Source: Brachyspira pilosicoli
Lineage (GTDB): Bacteria > Spirochaetota > Brachyspiria > Brachyspirales > Brachyspiraceae
Direction of reading: 5' to 3'
DNA length: 64,000 nt
Assembly (NCBI RefSeq): GCF_008016535.1
Contig: NZ_SAXY01000035.1
Coordinates: 1-64,000, forward strand
This document shows positions 61,485 through 62,926 of this stretch, one piece after another. Both the position numbers and the translations under genes were made by a program. Below the pieces are notes generated by a model. The model did not search any database. It was not told the origin of the DNA and saw nothing but the letters and a program-made list of their open reading frames with translations. How positions within the stretch are numbered: the first letter of the stretch is position 1; every line of letters begins with the position of its first letter.

Positions 61485-62792
61485 TTATTTACCCCAAACT
61501 CCTCCAAACTTAAAACTCAAACCTATATAAAAATCATTGTCTACAGTATAATGCCCGCCATCTTTTGCCTCATAAGATATTACACCTACTTGATATCTAT
61601 CTTCAAGCTCATAGTATTGATAATTATTTTTATACACAGGATCGTAAGTAAATGTATCTGAAATCATAATTTTAAAATCTTCTGTAACATTAAAAGTGAG
61701 TTTTAAAAATGCTCTATATTTAGGCTGAAAAATATCTTCACTGTTTGAATAAATATTATTATCATATACTCCAACATGTGCTGTAATATCTATAATCCAT
61801 AATCTTCTCGCCTCAAAGAAAAGAAAACCGCTCATAGCATAATAAGGTTTATTTCCATTAAATGTCTGCACAGAAAAATCAGTATAATACCCTTCATTAT
61901 AGTGATGTTTATTTGTATTATTTTCTCCCGGAAAATATTCATTATATCTTCTTATTCCATGTCTAAACCAAAAGCCTTCTATACCAACAGTAAATCTTCC
62001 ATCTATTCCATTTCTAAAATAGAAAAAAGCATTAACACTATCTCCCCATTCTTTTATAGGTATAGAGCCTAATTCTGTCACTATTCCAGCCACTCCAGTA
62101 TTTATATAGTCATTACTGTATGATATTTTAGCCATTAACCCTTTAGAAGAATTAGCATCAAGCCCCATCTCTCCATTAACCATACCAACTCCAATAAACA
62201 CCCCGTAAAATGATGACTCTATCATAAGCCCTGTATCGTATCTTGGTATAAGCTGTGTTTCATAGCCTATAGGCATATCTCTTGGCCCTGATAATACAGT
62301 TGCTTTGTTGCTGCTTACTGTGTTAAAGTAAAATAGTGTAGGGAAATATGATGTCATAGGTATATTTTTTGTGTATGGCTCTAATACTCCAGCTCTTATG
62401 CCTATATATTTAAAATTTACAAATAGATTCATTTTAGAAAAATCGAAAACAGGAGGCGACATATCTTTATAAAACCTTGCTTTATGAGATAATGGCTCAT
62501 AAAATCTTGCGTTGATATTTGCTTCAATAGATGCATATTTATATTCTTTTATATAATGCAAATCTCCATAAAGAAGTACACCTAATGTATCTTCGTTTCC
62601 TGTTTGCTCTATTAAATCGCTCATTCTGCCGTATGCTGTTAATTCTAATGATGCACTTAAAACCCCGTATTTAGCGGAGTTGGTATTTGTTGTTTGTGCA
62701 TTTAGGCTTATTGATGAATAAATAATAATTATAAATAGTATTTTAATTAGTGTTGTGTTGTGTTGTGTTGTGTTGTGTTGTGTTGCATACAT
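61485..62792 (-). CDS. Outer-membrane protein with a pentanucleotide repeat before its signal peptide
   Basis: A 435-residue protein if begun at the ATG at 62792 (MYATQHNTTQHNTT); in-frame codons further up (ATG 62840, TTG 62846) are also possible, and none has a clear ribosome site. Codons 3-14 are the product of seven CAACA units. A hydrophobic signal sequence follows (LIKILFIIIIYSSISLNAQ). The mature part is a beta-barrel type sequence (aromatic and Gly-rich strands; last strand FYIGLSFKFGG). Because the repeat unit is five bases, gain or loss of one unit would shift the frame ahead of the signal peptide. The current seven copies are in frame. Ligand unknown. Confidence 0.75.
   Translation of the reverse strand: MYATQHNTTQHNTTLIKILFIIIIYSSISLNAQTTNTNSAKYGVLSASLELTAYGRMSDLIEQTGNEDTLGVLLYGDLHYIKEYKYASIEANINARFYEPLSHKARFYKDMSPPVFDFSKMNLFVNFKYIGIRAGVLEPYTKNIPMTSYFPTLFYFNTVSSNKATVLSGPRDMPIGYETQLIPRYDTGLMIESSFYGVFIGVGMVNGEMGLDANSSKGLMAKISYSNDYINTGVAGIVTELGSIPIKEWGDSVNAFFYFRNGIDGRFTVGIEGFWFRHGIRRYNEYFPGENNTNKHHYNEGYYTDFSVQTFNGNKPYYAMSGFLFFEARRLWIIDITAHVGVYDNNIYSNSEDIFQPKYRAFLKLTFNVTEDFKIMISDTFTYDPVYKNNYQYYELEDRYQVGVISYEAKDGGHYTVDNDFYIGLSFKFGGVWGK
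62751..62785 (-). repeat. Pentanucleotide simple-sequence repeat, seven copies of CAACA (minus strand)
   Basis: Seven uninterrupted TGTTG units on the plus strand (CAACA on the coding strand) lie between the start codon and the signal peptide of the outer-membrane protein gene. Confidence 0.95.
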
Positions 62793-62926
62793 ATTTATTA
62801 AATTATCAATATATTCATTTATTTTTAAAAAGTATAACATAAACAAATTAAAATATCAATTAAACAATATATTGAATATTTATTCTTTTCTGATAATATA
62901 TAAATATTAATTTTTAGGATAATATT

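Follow-up and report, generated by a model that had tools for sequence, protein, structure and literature searches.

Does a perfect array of seven CAACA units, directly behind the start of a gene for a putative surface protein, make that gene phase variable in Brachyspira pilosicoli? The array lies in a stretch of 64,000 nucleotides (positions 1 to 64,000 of contig NZ_SAXY01000035.1; this whole stretch is called the window here) and an earlier note on the same DNA had singled it out as an on/off switch. The genus includes pig, poultry and human gut pathogens, and phase variation in Brachyspira has been mentioned in passing for the Vsp proteins (PMC5415613); for phase variation driven by repeats, our searches of the open-access literature brought up no account in this genus. 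We consider it very likely that slipped-strand phase variation switches the window locus at the level of translation, and that this locus is one of a genus-wide set of A/C repeats.

Repeat tract and reading frames

The seven units are perfect and stand where the earlier note had placed them, in a minus-strand gene, after its start codon and ahead of the signal-peptide sequence. Tandem Repeats Finder (TRF) gave period 5, 7.2 copies and a 100% match at 62750-62785, including one extra base at 62750, and within the window it detected no second perfect pentamer array of such kind. The minus strand from 62792 to 62750 reads ATGTATG(CAACA)7C, followed by TAATTAAAATA, and at seven units the frame is open from the first ATG into the protein, in phase with the signal peptide (LIKILFIIIIYSSISLNA, then Q) as had been claimed. 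The repeat encodes (TTQHN)n, N-terminal to the hydrophobic core of the signal peptide. The coding strand of the tract consists of A and C only, so that it holds neither a start nor a stop codon in any frame.

Two ATGs precede the repeat. When units were added or removed on paper, seven units were ON (frame open into the protein) via the first ATG, six or nine were ON via the second and five or eight were OFF; at seven units the second ATG meets a stop directly behind the repeat. A change by a single unit destroys or restores the frame. Since 4 nt separate the two ATGs and their frames differ, two of the three phases are ON, and the tract would act as a switch with three states, two of them ON. 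The suggestion that the repeat number selects the start codon is borne out by this arrangement.

The 2.76-Mb genome has the 20-mer (CAACA)4 at no more than three loci, each of them immediately 3' of an ATG, which in practice excludes a chance origin. The two loci outside the window gene are both short leader open reading frames (ORFs), and the same genome contains three AAAC arrays in addition.

The outer limit given previously, a TTG at 62846 where the mechanically called ORF starts, had to be abandoned as a start codon, since it falls inside the best promoter match of the minus strand (Table 1; the region has 16 promoter-like sites, compared with 12.7 in shuffles). An equivalent element, TTGATA-17-TATATT, is located at the same place in the repeat-less relatives L010-L013. 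With the TTG inside a conserved promoter element, translation must start at one of the two ATGs. A start 3' of the repeat was also rejected: there is no in-frame ATG, GTG or TTG before the mature protein. No good Shine-Dalgarno sequence was found upstream of either ATG.

The same gene in other Brachyspira genomes

Homologues of the window gene were found in 24 of the 26 Brachyspira genomes searched; identities in alignment A1 were 71-95%. A repeat is present at this site in seven genomes, CAACA in the window and 7-bp units (ACACAAC, ACACAGC or AACAAGC) in six other species (G008, G010, G015, G017, G021 and G024). The remaining homologues, including the closest relatives of the window gene (L010-L013), have an ordinary signal peptide and no repeat, although these relatives share the promoter and the flank with it. 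The three analysable 7-bp alleles (L021, L025 and L028) all carry two ATGs before the repeat, 7 nt apart and out of frame with each other. The frame is open from the first ATG in L025 and L028 and from the second in L021, and each allele is thus ON from one of its two starts. The copy numbers of the 7-bp alleles, compared between species, are 16.4, 5.7 and 4.3.

In the gene tree the window gene falls inside an otherwise repeat-less clade (support 97/95). This position makes it most likely that the 5-bp and the 7-bp tract are separate gains, and the device would have arisen at least twice at this one gene.

The 5' end of one homologue without a repeat (L020, genome G009) has a run of eight T where a relative has AAGTTTTTTT. 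With this run, the signal peptide is no longer in the reading frame of the usual ATG; poly-T slippage or a sequencing error could be the cause.

A genus-wide set of A/C repeats

The 26 genomes were scanned by pattern searches for tracts of at least 26 nt made of A and C only, repeats containing G or T being outside their reach. There were 107 such tracts, 95 of them tandem arrays with units that include CAACA, AAAC, AAACC and the 7-bp units. By period, the arrays divide into 5 bp (49), 4 bp (33), 7 bp (11), 8 bp (1) and 6 bp (1), with none of 3 bp. About 80 arrays were retrieved, and the distance to the closest ATG was scored on 83; 68 of these have one 7 nt or less upstream, compared with 8% at random positions. 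The sole period-6 array (L132) is also the only one without an ATG within 40 nt. The CAACA tract occurs in 18 of the 26 Brachyspira genomes versus none of five genomes from other genera of the order. As a control, A/G tracts were scanned for as well; there were 53 over the 26 genomes, few of them exact tandem arrays, which indicates that the bias towards A and C is real. Period-5 A/G arrays of the type (GAGAA)n do exist (G000:C90:30985-31016, and also in G001, G003 and G019).

These figures bear on the possibility that the tract has expanded recently and neutrally within an N-terminal extension that tolerates it, where (TTQHN)n is harmless and its number is not selected for switching. The closest relatives are repeat-less, as such an expansion would have it, and the repeat-encoded residues precede the signal-peptide core and would be removed together with it. 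However, neutral growth predicts that 3- and 6-bp units should be common, and it leaves unexplained both the ATG so close in front of most arrays and the independent 7-bp tract at the same site with its paired out-of-frame ATGs. We hold this explanation to be highly improbable.

Three arrangements of the repeat loci

In the first arrangement, to which the window locus belongs, the array is fused to a long frame. It was found at 11 loci, five ON (L009, the window locus, L081, L086, L150 and L159) and six OFF with the long downstream frame intact (L111, L112, L123, L143, L144 and L145).

In the second, the array lies in a leader ORF followed by a hairpin with a T-run and then by a separate gene (L049, L087, L088, L100, L101, L108, L113, L151, L156, L157 and L158). 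Except at L158, one or more of the leader frames close ahead of the hairpin and another reads into it or beyond. One of them, L049, is in the genome of the window (G000:C82, about 34586-34620, minus strand; L049:8400-8700). Its leader, MNTTQHNTTQH, ends right behind the CAACA repeat, the strong hairpin with its T-run (-20.3 kcal/mol) lies 34-69 nt behind the repeat, and a methyltransferase-domain gene with its own ribosome site stands downstream. An alternative leader frame would pass through the hairpin and stop at +79, which makes this locus a candidate phase-variable attenuator.

The third arrangement has a leader ORF and no terminator. Often two of the three frames are open to the next gene and the third stops early, and the open frames end at the ATG of the next gene, their stop lying 1 or 8 nt behind the A of this ATG. 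Among the 42 leader loci where the next start is 60 nt or more away, 35 leader frames stayed open as far as that start, compared with 6.0 in dinucleotide shuffles. In the AAACC variant (L092, L098, L105, L116, L125, L136 and L141), a hairpin (-15.8 kcal/mol) encloses the ribosome site and the ATG of an MBOAT gene and would be opened by the longer leader frames. This MBOAT locus has from 8.6 to 18.8 AAACC copies between species, with nearly the same flanks. The effect of this third mode would be exerted by translational coupling or by opening of the hairpin.

A number of AAAC leader ORFs (L083, L084, L094, L102, L109, L124, L131, L133, L137 and others) share a conserved tail (TCAAGTTTTACT...TTTGTTGCAAAAAA). 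They precede a family of membrane proteins of about 700 residues, and two of their frames run into the next start codon. At L048 and L155, a near-identical repeat leader and tail are found before unrelated genes, one for a small secreted protein and one for a KilA-N-like protein, as if the leader moved as a cassette.

Genes behind the arrays

Pfam matches among the genes behind the arrays were MBOAT acyltransferase, sialyltransferase family 29, glycosyltransferase family 8, arylsulfotransferase, FkbM and other methyltransferases, and a cyclic-nucleotide-binding protein. The largest family, behind 26 arrays, is that of the membrane proteins of about 700 residues with many membrane spans; the two members tested had no Pfam match, and that they are glycosyltransferases is a guess. 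From the domains, surface glycan modification appears to be the shared theme of the array-controlled genes. A gene resembling a cyclic-nucleotide-binding regulator has 7-bp repeats at its start at L159, L111 and L128, and a regulator too may therefore be phase variable.

Together with the three arrangements, these genes point to a phase-variable set of A/C-repeat loci across the genus, mainly surface-glycan genes, that would be switched by gene fusion, by terminator read-through or by a leader running into the next start. We regard this wider proposal as probable.

Interpretation

During replication, slippage within a population would add or remove one CAACA unit and thereby put the signal peptide into another frame relative to the start codons. 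Two of the repeat phases would be translated, from one ATG or the other and probably at different rates, and the third would be OFF, so that protein levels would vary. Over the genus, A/C repeats stand behind the initial ATG, either of a gene or of a short leader ORF placed before a surface-glycan gene; in the leader type, the phase of the repeat would decide whether the ribosome stops early or runs through the terminator or into the next start. The frame switch put forward in the earlier note has gained support from a unit that is not a multiple of three, from the second repeat type at the same site, from the arrays found behind starts throughout the genus and from the mixture of ON and OFF loci between genomes. 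As is typical of a contingency locus, the tract has a non-triplet unit in the translated part, and related alleles differ in copy number or state (between species only).

Several points weigh on the other side. Repeat numbers were compared between species only, with one isolate of the window species, and all four analysable repeat-bearing alleles of the window gene are ON, with no OFF allele among them. Related loci share descent, and the locus counts are not statistically independent trials. Seven units (35 nt) are short in comparison with many relatives, which have 10-40 copies, and for this reason the switching rate may be low; expression may also be weak without a Shine-Dalgarno sequence before the ATGs.

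Part of this would suit a role in expression tuning, in which the unstructured A/C stretch helps ribosome loading without a Shine-Dalgarno sequence and the two starts keep the gene mostly on. A tract free of G and T at a gene without such a sequence agrees with that role, and so do the two ON phases out of three and the four ON alleles out of four. Tuning fails, however, to account for units that avoid multiples of three or for the six fused loci elsewhere that are OFF in front of intact genes, and it is, if anything, less probable still than the neutral expansion. An assembly artefact, with a true copy number other than seven and an accidental frame relation, is hardly credible: the draft assembly comprises 113 contigs, and in other genomes such repeats are cut by the ends of several contigs, but the 36-nt tract is shorter than one short read, its flanks are unique and syntenic with the relatives, and the frame is open as assembled.

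If the slippage switch and the genus-wide set are real, Brachyspira would randomly shuffle one surface protein along with a large set of enzymes that modify glycans. This would have a bearing on serotyping, on the poor vaccine record and on strain-to-strain differences.

Promoter, protein and neighbouring gene

The coordinates of the features at the window locus are collected in Table 1. The mature protein has 403 residues, and the signal peptide, assigned by pattern, is probably cleaved before QTTNTN, to judge from the pattern and from the conservation of this motif. It is a probable beta-rich surface protein conserved in Brachyspira, probably secreted and located in the outer membrane. Profile searches against Pfam, NCBIfam and PDB gave no match, and in the AlphaFold model (mean predicted local distance difference test, pLDDT, of 32) only paired strands were visible.

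Table 1 Features of the repeat-bearing gene in the window
Feature	Position	Strand	Basis
Sigma-70-like promoter, TTGATA-17-TATACT, with TG before the second hexamer	62831..62859	-	10/12 match
First ATG, reading into the protein with seven units as assembled (ON)	62790..62792	-	Frame bookkeeping
Second ATG, 4 nt downstream of the first, other frame	62786..62788	-	Frame bookkeeping
(CAACA)7, proposed slippage tract	62751..62785	-	TRF, sequence
Signal-peptide core LIKILFIIIIYSSISLNA, placed after the repeat	62697..62750	-	Translation
Coding region of the gene under the proposed switch, 435-aa precursor, stop 61485-61487	61485..62792	-	ORF list, homologues, alignment

The convergent gene at 59865-61478 (plus strand) ends 7 nt from this coding region. 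It encodes a protein of 537 residues that has no Pfam match; its NPPY motif is typical of N6-adenine DNA methyltransferases.

Comparison with known systems

In Neisseria, the opa genes carry a CTCTT pentamer near the signal peptide of a surface protein and are switched by frame. The window gene also has a pentamer near the signal peptide of a putative surface protein and the same kind of frame switching is proposed for it. However, the opa repeat codes for the core of the signal peptide whereas the window repeat precedes the core, and both protein and repeat are unrelated.

The closest likeness in the choice of starts is to lic2A of Haemophilus influenzae, which has a repeat in its 5' end and several initiation codons (Dixon et al. 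2007, as summarised in PMC4235727). Going by that summary, both have a non-triplet 5' repeat with upstream starts in different frames, such that the repeat number selects the start and would give graded expression; the paired ATGs are 4 nt apart in the window gene and 7 nt apart in the 7-bp alleles. The window gene differs from the lic2A described there in having a pentamer instead of a tetramer and a secreted protein instead of a glycosyltransferase; there is no sequence kinship.

The leader type of Brachyspira (L049, L087, L088, L100 and L101) resembles pil1 of Streptococcus gallolyticus, where experiments have characterised a leader peptide with GCAGA repeats and a terminator behind it through which the longer frame runs (PMC3894217). 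Both have a pentamer leader ORF with a terminator. The window repeat, in contrast, is fused to the gene, with no leader ORF and no terminator found at its locus, and the Brachyspira design recurs at many glycan genes and has a terminator-less version that runs into the next start. For this coupling version of repeat switching we found no precedent.

In translational attenuation of the ermC type, a leader is switched by a drug. The AAACC loci, as distinct from the window locus, are similar in having a leader ORF before a hairpin that holds the ribosome site and the ATG, here of the MBOAT gene, but their leader would be switched by repeat number. Taken alone, the window locus would be a device of a familiar type in a new setting, and the leader loci of the genus would form a natural collection of switches in which one shared repeat device leads to three regulatory outcomes.
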